Source of the DNA: an uncultured Alphaproteobacteria bacterium | Lineage (GTDB): Bacteria > Pseudomonadota > Alphaproteobacteria > Micropepsales > Micropepsaceae | Direction: 5' to 3' | Assembly (NCBI GenBank): GCA_902826695.1 | Contig: CADEFU010000011.1 | Location: forward strand, 1 to 64,000 | Length of the DNA: 64,000 nt | In this document: positions 41,396 through 47,276 of the stretch, piece after piece | Numbering within the stretch: position 1 is the first letter of the stretch | Layout: the number at the start of each line of letters is the position of its first letter | Program-made: the position numbers and the translations under genes | The notes under the pieces: model-generated | Told to the model about the DNA's origin: nothing | Seen by the model: only the letters and a program-made list of their open reading frames with translations | Database searches by the model: none

Positions 41396-41947
41396 ATGGT
41401 TGACGAGACAAAAGGCGCCGAAATCTGGCGCCGGACCACGATTTTGTCGGTACGGAAGGGCGGGAAGGTCGTCATCGCCGGCGATGGCCAGGTGAGCCTC
41501 GGCCAGACGGTCATGAAGGGCAACGCCCGCAAGGTCAGGCGGCTAGGGCAGGGCAGGGTGATCGCAGGCTTTGCGGGCGCCACCGCCGATGCGTTCACGC
41601 TGTTCGAGCGCCTGGAAGGCAAACTCGAAACCTATCCCGGCAATCTGACACGCGCCGCCGTCGAACTCGCAAAGGATTGGCGCACAGACCGCTACCTGCG
41701 GCGCCTCGAAGCCATGCTCGCAGTCGCCGACAGCCAGACAAGCCTGATTTTGTCGGGCTCTGGCGACGTCGTAGAACCCGAAGACGGCCTAATCGGCATT
41801 GGCTCCGGTGGCAATTACGCCCTCGCCGCTGCCCGCGCTTTGCTACCGCTCGATTTCTCTGCCGAAGACATAGCCCGCCGCGCCATGAAGATCGCTGGCG
41901 ACATCTGCGTCTACACCAACCACGAAGTCACCCTGGAAAGCCTCTAG
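41396..41947 (+). CDS. hslV: ATP-dependent protease HslUV, peptidase subunit
   Basis: 183 residues. The threonine protease motif [10 protein letters not shown] starts at residue 14, so a 13-residue propeptide must be removed to expose the catalytic Thr. Later Gly-rich [11 protein letters not shown] and the Lys of VRRLG complete the active site. HslV forms the double hexamer of the HslUV heat-shock protease. hslU follows after 3 nt. The 86 bp shared with hisB hold a possible but poor heat-shock promoter (CATATAG at 41354 with CTTTG 17 nt upstream). Confidence 0.97.
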
Positions 41948-41950
41948 TTC

Positions 41951-43264
41951 ATGAGTGTTCTCTCACCCCGCGAGATCGTCGCCGAACTCGACCGCTACAT
42001 CGTCGGCCAAGCCGCCGCCAAGCGCGCCGTCGCAATCGCCCTGCGCAACCGCTGGCGCCGTCAGCAATTGACCCCGGAACTGCGCGAAGAAGTGCTGCCG
42101 AAGAACATCTTGATGATCGGCCCGACCGGCGTCGGCAAAACCGAAATCGCGCGCCGCCTCGCGCGCCTCGCGAATGCGCCGTTCCTCAAGGTCGAGGCGA
42201 CGAAGTTCACCGAGGTCGGCTACGTCGGCCGCGACGTCGAACAGATCGTGCGCGACCTCGTCGAAATCGGCATCGCCGCCGCCCGCGAACGCCGCCGCAA
42301 AGACGTGAAAGCTCGAGCACAACGCGCGGCCGAAGACCGTGTCGTCGAGGCGTTGGTCGGCGCCGGCTCGGCCGAATCCACGAAGGAAACCTTCCGCCGC
42401 AAACTGCGCGACGGCGAACTGGATGACAAAGAGATCGAACTCAACGTCGCCGACACCGCAAACCCGATGTCGCAATTCGAAATTCCCGGCATGCCGGGCT
42501 CGAACGTCGGCATGGTCAATCTGAACGACCTTCTCGGCAAGGCGTTTGGCGGCAGACAAAAGCTGCGCAAGATGAAGGTGGTCGACGCCTACGCACCGCT
42601 GATCGCCGAAGAGAGCGACAAACTCATCGACAACGAAGCGCTCGTCCAAGACGCGATCAAAACGGTCGAAAACGACGGCATCGTCTTCATCGACGAGATC
42701 GACAAGATCTGCGCCCGCGAAGGCTCGGCCCGCGGCGGCGCCGACGTCAGCCGCGAAGGTGTGCAGCGCGATCTGTTGCCGCTGATCGAAGGCACCACCG
42801 TGTCCACGAAACACGGTCCCGTGAAAACCGACCACATATTGTTCGTCGCCTCCGGCGCGTTCCACATTGCAAAGCCCTCGGACCTGCTGCCCGAATTGCA
42901 AGGCCGGCTGCCGATCCGCGTCGAACTGCAAGCGCTCACCCGCGACGACTTCCGCCGCATCCTGACCGAACCCGAGGCGAGCCTGATCAAGCAGTACAAG
43001 GCCCTCATGCACACGGAAGGGGTGACCCTGGAATTCACCGAAGACGGGATCGACGCCCTCGCCGATGCAGCCGCTGAGGTAAATGCCTCGGTGGAAAACA
43101 TCGGCGCGCGCAGGTTGCAGACCGTAATGGAACGAGTGCTCGAAGAGGTAAGCTTCCACGCCCCCGATAGTGCGGGTGCGAGGATCGTTGTGGACCGCAC
43201 CTTCGTGACCCGCGAAATCGGTGCTTTGACGAAGAATGCGGACCTCTCGCGCTTCATACTTTGA
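41951..43264 (+). CDS. hslU: ATP-dependent protease HslUV, ATPase subunit
   Basis: 437 residues, normal length. AAA+ Clp-type unfoldase with Walker [12 protein letters not shown], the I domain (about 105-235), Walker [10 protein letters not shown], and sensor 2 in [10 protein letters not shown]. The C-terminus ends in DLSRFIL, the tail that inserts into HslV. Heat-shock partner of hslV. Confidence 0.97.
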
Positions 43265-43450: not shown

Positions 43451-45505
43451 GTGTCTAAGCGGAACCTCTTTATTAGTTTTGCCGAAAGCGACGGCGGACA
43501 TTCCTATTTGGCAGCGCGGGCGATGCTCGAACCGGGCTCGATCGCGCATCTAATTTTCCGCAATACGGTTGCCGAGTCTCTCGAAGCCGTCGCCGCGGGC
43601 CAAGCAAGCTACGCCGTCGTCCCTTGCTACAATTCGATCACGCAGTGGGACGGCGCCACGATGAAGGCGTTGGCAAGCGGCGGTTACGAAATCTACGGCC
43701 AAGTTTGCATGCCCACGAGCTACGTTCTCGTCGCGCACAAAGAATACATGAGCGAGTTCCTGAGCACGTACGAGTCCGTGAAGGACCCGGGCCGCGAACT
43801 CACCGACGAAGAGAAAGCGAAGATCTACACGCGCTTCCTCTCGCGCATCTATGTCGGCGCACAGGCCGACGAACAATATCGCGGGCGACTGCTCCGTCCT
43901 GACATGACGCATGCATCCGTCGAGATCTCGCGCAATCCGCTGCGCGTACTCGAAGGCATCACGCGGTCCGACCTCATCAAGCAAATGACGAAGGCGACAA
44001 GCCGTCCGCAACAAACGCTACCCGGCAATGTTTCCGGCGGCAGCATTCTGGTTCAGTCGCAGTCCCAAGTGATCGTCGATACGCTCGAAGCTCCCGCCGC
44101 TCTTGTCGCCGCCGGTTTGCTCGACGCGCCGGGCGATCCGGAAGGCTGGGACCAACCGGGCTCGCTCGGCGAAATCGTCTCGCTTCTGCGCAATCTGCTT
44201 ATGCTCTTGAACGTCTATTCTTTCGGCTCGCCGGACCTGCCGGAGAACAAGACGTCGTACCTGCTTGTCGGCCGCCGCGGCGCAGGCGCTCCGCCCGCGT
44301 CAGCCCTGCGCTCACCGGCCGCGGCACCAACCCGCATTATGACGATGATCCGCCCGGCGAACAAAAAGTCGAGCGCTGACCTTTGGATGCGTCCCCGTAA
44401 CGACCTGGCGCGGCGCGCCCGCGATTTCGGCTTCGTCTTCGACCGCCCACCGGTGATGATCTCGCCCGGGAACAGCCGCGTCTTCCTGCTCGAAGGTGGC
44501 CGCCCGAAGGACGGCTTCACGGCAAGCCCGGCTGGAATGTTCGACTGGCTGCGCGATCTTATCGCGCCGCCTCAAGACACGAAGAACCAACCGGCTGGCG
44601 TGAAGGCCAAGGATAAGTCGCTCCGCAAAGCGCTTGAGAAAAAGCGCGACGGTGACACCAAGGACGACTCGCCCGCGAAGTACGACACCTACTTCCTCGG
44701 CCAGTACCCCACCTGGTGTCATGGGTTCGCCGACGATTCCTGCTGGTGCTGCGACGAAGCGCACTCCGATGCGGTGCCCGAGTCCGGCATCAACCTTGCG
44801 CCGTTGCTGCAGTTCCTGCTCGCAAGCCTCGTCGCACTGACGCTGCTTGCGCTCATCCTGGTGCCCGCCTACTGCGCGCTCACGGGCGCCTGCGGCTTCT
44901 TTACCGGCGACAATCCGCGCGACAACACAATTCTGCCGCCACCGATCAACCAACCGTTCGAACCGAACAAGATCGAGCCACAGGTGCCGCCGCCCTCGTC
45001 GTCGAACACCCAGCCCAGCGCACCGCCGCCGGCAGCCTACCCTGGCTATCCCGGCCTCGGCAGCGAGCAACCTAAAGCTACGCCGACTGACCCGAAGGCC
45101 GCGCCGGTCGGACCGAAGACATCCGCCGTGCAACCGCCGCCAACGCAACGCGTACGCACCGCGCCTTATCATGTGGCGTTTTTCCAAGGGAAAGGGAACC
45201 TGACCTCGGAATCGATGAACGCGCTCGCCGCCGCAGCCAGTCAAGCGATGCAGCTGAACCACCCGGCAACGATCCGCCTTGAGGCTTTGGGCCCGCGCGA
45301 ACACGACAGCGCTCTCTGGCAACGCCGCTTGCAGGCCGTCAAGGACGAACTCGTGCGAATGAATGTGCCGGCAAACCGCATCCGCCACGAAGGCACGGGT
45401 CCGTTCGTGATCAAAATCTCCAAGGACGTAGCCCCGCCGTCTGCCACCGGAAAGCGCGCATCGCTTGAGTTGGACTCGGTTCCGGACCCGTTGAGCGGCG
45501 ACTAA
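43451..45505 (+). CDS. Prephenate-dehydratase-like / single membrane span / OmpA-like fusion protein
   Basis: 684 residues from a GTG at 43451; an in-frame TTG at 43439 is an alternative and a stop at 43427 bars longer starts. Residues 1-275 read as a degenerate prephenate dehydratase: FISFAESDGGHSYLAARAM at the start, VVPCYNS (56-62, for the usual VVPIENS), and NKTSYLLVG (266-274) where the catalytic NxTRF motif lies, so Thr268 is kept but Arg and Phe are replaced by Ser269 and Tyr270. A basic linker, a Cys cluster (423, 431, 433, 434), a membrane span (about 452-480), a Pro-rich stretch and an OmpA-like domain (573-660) follow. The usual DAP-binding Asp is missing. A sensor linking cytoplasm to envelope is inferred. 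Confidence 0.7.
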   Translation: MSKRNLFISFAESDGGHSYLAARAMLEPGSIAHLIFRNTVAESLEAVAAGQASYAVVPCYNSITQWDGATMKALASGGYEIYGQVCMPTSYVLVAHKEYMSEFLSTYESVKDPGRELTDEEKAKIYTRFLSRIYVGAQADEQYRGRLLRPDMTHASVEISRNPLRVLEGITRSDLIKQMTKATSRPQQTLPGNVSGGSILVQSQSQVIVDTLEAPAALVAAGLLDAPGDPEGWDQPGSLGEIVSLLRNLLMLLNVYSFGSPDLPENKTSYLLVGRRGAGAPPASALRSPAAAPTRIMTMIRPANKKSSADLWMRPRNDLARRARDFGFVFDRPPVMISPGNSRVFLLEGGRPKDGFTASPAGMFDWLRDLIAPPQDTKNQPAGVKAKDKSLRKALEKKRDGDTKDDSPAKYDTYFLGQYPTWCHGFADDSCWCCDEAHSDAVPESGINLAPLLQFLLASLVALTLLALILVPAYCALTGACGFFTGDNPRDNTILPPPINQPFEPNKIEPQVPPPSSSNTQPSAPPPAAYPGYPGLGSEQPKATPTDPKAAPVGPKTSAVQPPPTQRVRTAPYHVAFFQGKGNLTSESMNALAAAASQAMQLNHPATIRLEALGPREHDSALWQRRLQAVKDELVRMNVPANRIRHEGTGPFVIKISKDVAPPSATGKRASLELDSVPDPLSGD

Positions 45506-46077
45506 CCGCGCTGCCGGCGTAGGTACACGTAGAACGCACCAGCGCCGCCGTGGCGCTGGTGAGCCGTCTGCAGTCCCGTCACCATCGACCGCATTTCTTC
45601 GAGCCAGCGCGGCACCATCATTCGAAGCACGCCGGCCTTTGACCGCTCTGGCATTACAAAGCCCAATGGTCCTTCCTCGCGCACGGGTGAGCCCTTGCCC
45701 GTAATCACAAGCAAGCAGCGGCTCCCAATCTCATGCCCATGCCGCACAAACTGTGAGAGCCGGGCGTGCGCTTGAGCCTGTGTCATCCCATGCAAATCAA
45801 GCGTCGCTTCTGGCGCGACCTTACCCCGCCTGAGCCGCTCCCCCGTCGCTCCATCGAGCCCAAAGGGCGCTGCACGTTTCACTGGCGCAGGCGCCGGGAC
45901 CTCGACAGGCCGCACGCGAACAGCTTTCGGTCGAACTGGCGCGCTCGCCTCCGCTTTAGGCGAAGTCTTCGCCTTCGCCGCGCTTTGAGCCCGCCGCGCA
46001 CGCGGCTTGCGCACGTCGCGCGTAACGAGCTCCCACAACTCGCGCTCGTCCTCGCGAAGATCGCGCTTGCGCACCAC
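45502..46077 (-). CDS. Smr-domain protein
   Basis: 191 residues from a GTG at 46077 (or 46074, its twin). A basic N-terminal region with many Lys/Arg/Pro leads to a C-terminal Smr domain (about 95-190): LDLHGMTQAQAHARL, LLVITGKGSP, and GAFYVYLRR. The LDLHG and TGKG motifs fit nuclease-type Smr proteins. It starts 2 nt after the mltA stop, so it is probably translated with mltA. Its 3' end overlaps the PDT-like gene by 4 bp. Nucleic acid is the likely substrate. Confidence 0.88.
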   Translation of the reverse strand: MVRKRDLREDERELWELVTRDVRKPRARRAQSAAKAKTSPKAEASAPVRPKAVRVRPVEVPAPAPVKRAAPFGLDGATGERLRRGKVAPEATLDLHGMTQAQAHARLSQFVRHGHEIGSRCLLVITGKGSPVREEGPLGFVMPERSKAGVLRMMVPRWLEEMRSMVTGLQTAHQRHGGAGAFYVYLRRQRG

Positions 46078-46079
46078 GG

Positions 46080-47276
46080 TCAGTTCAGCCGGGCAGCCAC
46101 AGACTTCGGCAGCAACACAAAGAGCCGTCCTCGGTGCGCCATACGCCCGGCGACGTTCTCCGCGCGTGCCCCAGCGCCCCAATAGACATCGCCGCGCACA
46201 GGCCCACGGATAGCGCCACCCGTATCCTGCGCCACGACAAGCCGCCGGAACGGAACGTCTTGGCCGCCATCGCTCGGGGCGTTCGCCTCGACCCACATCG
46301 GCGCGCCCAGCGCATGGAACTTAAGATCGACCGCCAAGCTCGCCTCCGGGATCAGCGGCACCCCCTGCGCGCCTTCCGCCCCGAGCGTCGGGTCGGCAAT
46401 CGGCTGCTCTTTGAAGAAAACGTAAGATGCATTCTCGTTCATGAGGCCCGCCGCCTTCGCCGGATTGGCAATGAGCCAGGCACGAATTCGCTGCATAGAC
46501 ATCTCTTCGCGCCGGACCTCACCGCGCTCGATCAAGATTTTCCCGATCGCCGTATAGGGATGCCCGTTCTGTCCGTCATAGGCGACGCGAATGATCTCGC
46601 CGTTCGCAAATCTCACGCGCCCAGACCCCTGCACCTGAAGGAAGAACGCGCCCACCGGATCGTCAACATACGCGACCACCGACGACCGCCCGCGAAGACC
46701 GCCCGCAACGATCTCCCCGCGCGTCAAATAAGGTACCAGCCGCCCGCCCTCGACGCGCCCTGCAATTCGCTCCCCGCGCAGCGCCGGTCGGAACGCGCCA
46801 AGCTCCGCCATCACGAGGTCGCCCGGTCGCGTCAGCAGCGGCGTCGCAAACCGGCCACTTGCCACGCGGCTTCCGGTAAGCTCCGGCTCATAGTAGCCGG
46901 TGAAGAGCCCGACTTCTTCATCCCGGTTCGACGCGATCGCCAGCTGAAAGAACGCTTCGAAGAACCGCCGCGGATCGCCACCGGCTTGCGGAGCCGCGGC
47001 ACAAGCGCCGCGCCACTCCCCAGCAGTGCCATAGGCAGCAACGCCGCCGAACCCATCGCTATCCGCACGCGCCTCAATCTTCCGGCAAGACGCAACGAAC
47101 GCCTTGAGCGCACCCGACAGGTCCGCAGACTGCCACCCGTCAAGCGTGGAGAATGCCGCGCGCCGCAGCACCAACTCGTCCGAAGGCGCGCCCTTGTCCG
47201 CTACGGGGCCGCTAAGCGGCGCACACGCGGCCAACAGAATCACTGCGACCGCGCTGATCGTTGGCGATATGCGCAT
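46080..47276 (-). CDS. mltA: Membrane-bound lytic murein transglycosylase A
   Basis: 398 residues. A lipoprotein signal (VAVILLAACAP, with the lipobox LAAC) anchors it. The MltA core has FTGYYEPELTGS, then SSVVAYVDDPVGAFFLQVQG and the 3D-domain end AQDTGGAIRGPVRGDVYWG with the catalytic Asp. It cleaves peptidoglycan glycan chains to 1,6-anhydro ends. It lies between the Tim44-like gene and the Smr gene, an arrangement conserved in Alphaproteobacteria. Confidence 0.95.
   Translation of the reverse strand: MRISPTISAVAVILLAACAPLSGPVADKGAPSDELVLRRAAFSTLDGWQSADLSGALKAFVASCRKIEARADSDGFGGVAAYGTAGEWRGACAAAPQAGGDPRRFFEAFFQLAIASNRDEEVGLFTGYYEPELTGSRVASGRFATPLLTRPGDLVMAELGAFRPALRGERIAGRVEGGRLVPYLTRGEIVAGGLRGRSSVVAYVDDPVGAFFLQVQGSGRVRFANGEIIRVAYDGQNGHPYTAIGKILIERGEVRREEMSMQRIRAWLIANPAKAAGLMNENASYVFFKEQPIADPTLGAEGAQGVPLIPEASLAVDLKFHALGAPMWVEANAPSDGGQDVPFRRLVVAQDTGGAIRGPVRGDVYWGAGARAENVAGRMAHRGRLFVLLPKSVAARLN

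Follow-up and report, generated by a model that had tools for sequence, protein, structure and literature searches.

The locus described here lies in a window of 64,000 nucleotides (the whole stretch of DNA that was analysed) and centres on a forward-strand gene set between hslU and an Smr-domain gene. The gene starts with a GTG codon at 43451, ends with a stop codon at 45503–45505 and encodes 684 amino acids, which confirms the reading frame, strand and coordinates (43451–45505, +) given in an earlier note on this DNA. Orthologues share the start site and an N-terminus of the MSKRNLF type in the alignment, and thereby support the start of the 684-aa open reading frame (ORF). The features of the locus are as follows, with residue numbers referring to the 684-aa protein and PDT standing for prephenate dehydratase.

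41396–41947: hslV, adjoining hslU on its upstream side.
41951–43264, + strand: hslU, the conserved upstream neighbour.
43451–45505, + strand: the whole gene (684 aa and stop), comprising PDT-like and ACT-like domains, a membrane span, a Pro-rich linker and an OmpA-like domain.
43463–43771, + strand: first PDT-like lobe, residues 5–107, with GGHS (15–18) and VPCYNS (57–62); identified by PF00800 and hhalign (probability 98.1).
43772–44281, + strand: second PDT-like lobe, residues 108–277, with EQY (141–143), SRNPLR (160–165), NKTSY (266–270) and a variable loop at about 181–214; identified by hhalign (probability 75), alignment and AlphaFold/Foldseek.
44327–44725, + strand: ACT-like domain, residues 293–425, with an insert at about 353–388; identified by the model and structure alignments, with weak support from sequence alone.
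44717–44764, + strand: Cys-rich stretch between the ACT-like domain and the span (C423, C431, C433, C434, H438), from the alignment.
44807–44869, + strand: single predicted membrane span, residues about 453–473 (Kyte–Doolittle peak 2.65).
44918–45166, + strand: Pro-rich linker, residues about 490–572, from sequence and alignment.
45167–45430, + strand: OmpA-like domain, residues about 573–660, in which GHTD is missing and the Arg of RRxxAV is kept.
45502–46296, − strand: Smr-domain gene, the conserved, convergent downstream neighbour, with a provisional start.

The stop codons of the 684-aa ORF and of the convergent Smr-domain gene overlap. We take the surrounding order of hslVU, smr, mltA, secB and aroE to be an ordinary conserved one and drew no functional clue from it; a scan for promoters and terminators upstream of the gene yielded nothing useful. 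An ORF arising by chance or artefact was ruled out by orthologues in 11/11 genomes of the genus, free of internal stops, as well as by dN/dS values far under 1 and by the presence of PDT in every member scanned. Assembly fusion of two genes was likewise ruled out, since nine further assemblies, each read over its full length, have the identical junction. An antisense ORF was set aside as a real gene, given the dN/dS of the + strand ORF.

The N-terminal part of the protein is a true PDT domain. In a Pfam profile search, PF00800 matched residues 14–99 with an E-value of 2.9e-7 and 30.9 bits, above its curated cut-off of 25.2 bits, and the PDT model matched all 12 homologues scanned. A profile built from these 12 homologues retrieved the solved prephenate dehydratases 3mwb (E 3.6e-10) and 2qmw (E 3.7e-7), with the NKT region lining up with the TRF region of the solved enzymes at a level below significance on its own. 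When the lobes were compared with the PheA profile as isolated segments (hhalign), each matched only its own PheA counterpart, the first with a probability of 98.1 and the second with 75.2. The prephenate dehydratase plan that the earlier note had read from the N-terminus is therefore borne out by profile (PF00800, E 2.9e-7) and by structure (Foldseek, E 9e-9), and VVPCYNS and NKTSYLLVG do fall at the PxENS and NxTRF positions when aligned with the PheA proteins of the same genus.

That note had the PDT likeness spanning the N-terminal 275 residues; the assignment stands but the end point does not, as the likeness runs on into an ACT-like domain (residues about 293–425). An AlphaFold model of residues 1–442, made with 12 sequences (pLDDT 61 on average, and mostly 70–84 in the core strands and helix of ACT), contained the PDT elements followed by a strand-helix-strand-strand-helix-strand order at 294–423. 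The first twelve Foldseek matches of this model were all prephenate dehydratases or PDT-like entries, with full-length alignments and a best E-value of 9e-9. VIA, an in-house structure aligner, scored PDT entries at Z 11.7–15.4, compared with 8.8 for the next fold, and aligned 258 of the 278 residues of 2qmx (Z 14.5, rmsd 4.8). Its alignments to PDT+ACT structures extended to residues 420–437, and the ACT domains of SerB2 matched residues 293–424 (Z 7.2–7.3). The ACT-like domain ends in FLGQYPTW, resembling the LGxYPx end of PheA, and this LGxYPxW end carried the hhalign score of the ACT segment alone against PheA (18.5, compared with 13.1 for the best of 20 column shuffles). At a probability of 3%, that sequence comparison is not proof in itself and the ACT claim rests on the model; the full-length hhalign probability of 98.8 was obtained in global mode and so adds no independent support for the ACT domain. 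Inspection by eye of the homologues' ACT-like region, where the alignment is uncertain, revealed neither of the Phe-binding motifs GALV and ESRP. Judged from the model, the cytoplasmic part most plausibly represents an entire, though diverged, PheA (PDT+ACT) and not a PDT domain alone.

Beyond the ACT-like domain, the protein has one hydrophobic peak only (residues 453–471), with a counterpart in 12/12 homologues, and the linker comes after it, in agreement with the earlier description of one membrane span followed by a Pro-rich stretch. The charges flanking the span leave its orientation unsettled, the positive-inside rule being uninformative here. We infer that PDT+ACT is cytoplasmic and the OmpA-like part periplasmic, because the protein has no signal peptide and OmpA-type domains are periplasmic elsewhere. 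The Cys-rich stretch with its His, CHGFADDSCWCCDEAH, is possibly metal-binding; only some members of the genus conserve it.

The C-terminal part resembles OmpA-type domains, as had been proposed, although the PF00691 cut-off was not reached: against the 684-aa protein this profile gave a sub-threshold E-value of 0.12 and 13.2 bits, compared with a curated cut-off of 27.2 bits. The likeness is supported instead by the NCBIfam OmpA model (E 4e-4), by a profile of 10 tails that found solved OmpA-type domains (best E 3.9e-4) and by a six-frame search in which the part resembled porin tails in the genus, down to E 1.5e-10. A structure model of this part (pLDDT 77.5) had the order strand-helix-strand-helix-strand-strand, and its top Foldseek matches were OprF and Pal (probability 0.99, E 0.04). 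VIA listed IF3-type folds at the top at about Z 7 and OmpA types at about Z 6, a tie within tool error. The tails of the genome's own OmpA porins and the fused tail were 30% identical over 101 columns and had the FxVxF start and the RRxxAV helix in common; the simplest way to read these sequences is that the domain came from such a tail. The GHTD motif with the peptidoglycan-binding Asp was missing from 10/10 aligned fused tails, consistent with the absence of the DAP-binding Asp reported before, and the RR of RRxxAV, with the peptidoglycan-binding Arg, was invariant in the same 10/10. The loss that the note named in the OmpA part is real, but the retained Arg had been overlooked.

The fusion was present in 11/11 genomes of the genus, in one of which (G007) it was split over two contig ends, and the named records among its carriers were uncultured alphaproteobacterial metagenome-assembled genomes. 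The domain order and the fusion itself thus recur well beyond one genome, and the conservation in several genomes by which the earlier note proposed to check it extends to the whole genus; neither of the two outcomes that the note would have taken as refuting it was seen. What that note missed is a form without the OmpA-like domain: in two other genera, proteins of 527 aa (G016) and 621 aa (G018) at the same hslU–smr locus consist of PDT, ACT and the span. Matches in the remaining 83 genomes sampled from the order did not rise above the level of PheA, and no further family member was found in the 385 class and 398 phylum genomes sampled, the class-sample matches being PheA frames of 281–302 aa. 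In two g6 genomes from a related genus (G015 and G020), the hslU–smr interval held other genes and no PDT-like gene was seen. This interval measured about 8 kb and contained frames that, by eye, resemble gamma-glutamyltransferase, M13 peptidase and TIR sequences. Roughly one in three family genomes gave no strong HslU match, hslU seemingly being missing from many.

Phylogenetic analysis placed the family on one branch (support 100/99), in which G018 and G016 fall outside the genus on long branches of their own, and a long branch separated the PDT part from all PheA sequences. Every genome of the genus also carries a canonical PheA, so the second copy was free to diverge. Mean identity within the genus was highest in the pocket-bearing segments of PDT (76–78%), followed by the OmpA-like domain (59%) and the linker (34%). 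The dN/dS ratio was 0.12–0.22 for PDT+ACT and 0.08–0.31 for the OmpA-like part; both ends are under purifying selection and are maintained.

We compared the active site in an alignment of 12 family members with 21 PheA proteins. Eight residues (G15, P58, N61, Q142, E241, D262, N266 and T268) were invariant in 12/12 family members and invariant or nearly so in the 21 PheA proteins, S18 was invariant in the family, and E141 and P163 were new invariants there. The four catalytic residues of Escherichia coli PheA we take to be N160, S208, Q215 and T278. The counterparts of the catalytic Asn, Gln and Thr (N61, Q142 and T268) were kept in all 12 family members. At the position of the catalytic Ser, seven residues before the Gln, all 12 had V, T or G, compared with S in 21/21 PheA proteins. 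Two acidic positions also changed: the Glu of PxENS, found in 21/21 PheA proteins, was present in 0/12 family members (Y, H or T instead), and the Asp of DTA, likewise 21/21 in PheA, was lost (L, H, I or W). The Arg of TRF was absent from 11/12 homologues and kept in G018 alone. The catalytic Arg is missing much as the earlier note had stated, but the invariance of the Asn, Gln and Thr had escaped it. Because three of the four catalytic residues are invariant, the cleft looks retooled rather than dead. With these residues kept but the substrate-binding acids gone, the protein is unlikely to act as a normal prephenate dehydratase; its binding cleft is likely to be a retooled one and still seems fit to bind a small acid. 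The G018 homologue, the most diverged, combines a canonical TRF triad (NTTRF) with a segment, GHPWSFEQC, much like the one in PheA. By its sequence, this homologue may be nearer to an active enzyme.

The explanation that we favour, tentatively, is that the protein is a repurposed, neofunctionalised PheA paralogue, anchored in the membrane and coupled to the envelope, whose cytoplasmic part binds a small anionic metabolite. Its PheA-like part is probably no longer a normal dehydratase and would serve for binding or sensing instead. We suggest that an ancestral PheA paralogue (PDT+ACT) gained a C-terminal membrane span at the hslU–smr locus and that later, in one genus only, a Pro-rich linker and a C-terminal domain like that on the genome's OmpA porins were added. 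The cytoplasmic PDT+ACT cleft would bind a small anionic metabolite, not necessarily prephenate, and either the closing of this cleft or a shift in oligomeric state brought about by ACT could then be relayed through the single span to the OmpA-like domain, which would dock to the periplasmic face of the envelope. The sequences themselves show the domain order, its conservation, the purifying selection on both ends and the altered pocket residues; we infer the order in which the parts were gained, ligand binding, the loss of dehydratase activity, which way a signal would run and the partner in the envelope. A sensing role, as the earlier note had suggested, is a reasonable hypothesis. A stronger claim, about which we are doubtful, is that the protein acts as a one-component transmembrane metabolite sensor, in which a whole PheA (PDT+ACT) forms the cytoplasmic ligand module, drives or reads the OmpA-derived periplasmic domain and so conveys the level of an aromatic-pathway or related metabolite to the envelope.

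An unlikely alternative, though the best of those that we weighed against the favoured repurposed paralogue, is that the protein is still an enzyme, anchored to the membrane and with altered chemistry in the PDT cleft, for instance as an amide hydrolase of the GqqA kind or as a dehydratase acting on another substrate. GqqA of Komagataeibacter europaeus is a PDT-fold protein that hydrolyses acyl-homoserine lactones, with Y16, S17 and T174 as proposed contacts, and it complements an E. coli PDT mutant (PMC8192741). These contacts would correspond to H17, S18 and T268 in the fused protein, 7am0 (GqqA) was among the best structural matches, and the invariance of N61, Q142, T268 and S18 also speaks for this alternative. 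As a PDT+ACT protein with a second function (PDB 7alz, 7am0), GqqA moreover provides a precedent for the repurposing of PheA. However, E159 and E232, reported to be important for substrate binding in the E. coli enzyme, are kept in GqqA as E55 and E127 (PMC8192741), whereas their counterparts are replaced in the fused family, and the loss of the TRF Arg from 11/12 members also counts against altered catalysis. No span or OmpA-like part has been described for GqqA.

Still less probable, in our judgement, is a pseudo-subunit that joins canonical PheA at the ACT/PDT interfaces and holds phenylalanine synthesis at the membrane. The two copies do occur together in each genome of the genus, and PDT-type proteins form dimers whose interface includes the ACT domains, as in the GqqA structure (PMC8192741), but the ACT-like part is highly diverged and the long branch in the tree sets the PDT part apart from all PheA sequences. 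We give least credence to a mainly structural role as an envelope tether or scaffold, with the OmpA-like domain bound to peptidoglycan or an outer-membrane protein and PDT+ACT as a ligand-free rigid cap: the retained Arg of RRxxAV and the purifying selection on the OmpA-like domain agree with it, but GHTD and its peptidoglycan-binding Asp are missing, the G016/G018 form has no OmpA domain at all and conservation is greatest in the PDT segments that carry the pocket.

Each domain of the protein is known, and we found no description of the combination of PDT+ACT, span and OmpA-like domain in the literature searched, nor any account there of a PDT(+ACT) protein that carries either a membrane span or an OmpA-like domain, which does not prove its absence elsewhere. 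With PheA (PF00800 + ACT; PDB 3mwb, 2qmx and 6vh5) the fused protein shares the fold, the order of a two-lobe PDT and an ACT domain and the G, P, N, Q, E, D, N and T positions. It differs in the pocket Glu, Ser, Asp and TRF Arg (the last in 11/12), in having no recognisable GALV or ESRP, and in its long inserts, membrane span and OmpA-like tail. With the C-terminal domains of OmpA porins, Pal and OprF (PF00691) it shares a similar strand-helix order, the FxVxF start, the RRxxAV helix and a Pro-rich lead-in, the nearest of these domains being the porin tails of its own genome, whereas its tail lacks GHTD, falls below the Pfam cut-off and sits on a span and a PheA-like part rather than on a barrel or lipid anchor. 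Enzymes of the Phe pathway moved from their usual place are also seen in exported chorismate mutase–cyclohexadienyl dehydratase fusions, which are rare and are reported as active exported enzymes, the dehydratase there being a cyclohexadienyl dehydratase (PMC10520331).

If the favoured explanation is correct, an enzyme of primary metabolism with its own allosteric domain would have become a membrane protein that possibly links cytoplasmic metabolism to the envelope. The stages of this change would still be visible as soluble PheA, the span-anchored PheA-like form and the OmpA-fused form. Because a single bacterial family contains all three forms today, the order in which the anchor and the envelope domain were gained is directly testable.

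Elsewhere in the same genome, five OmpA-porin-type genes stand in tandem at C1:527.8–532.0k (G000:C1:525000-535000), with further copies at other places, and TonB-receptor-like frames lie beside some of them.
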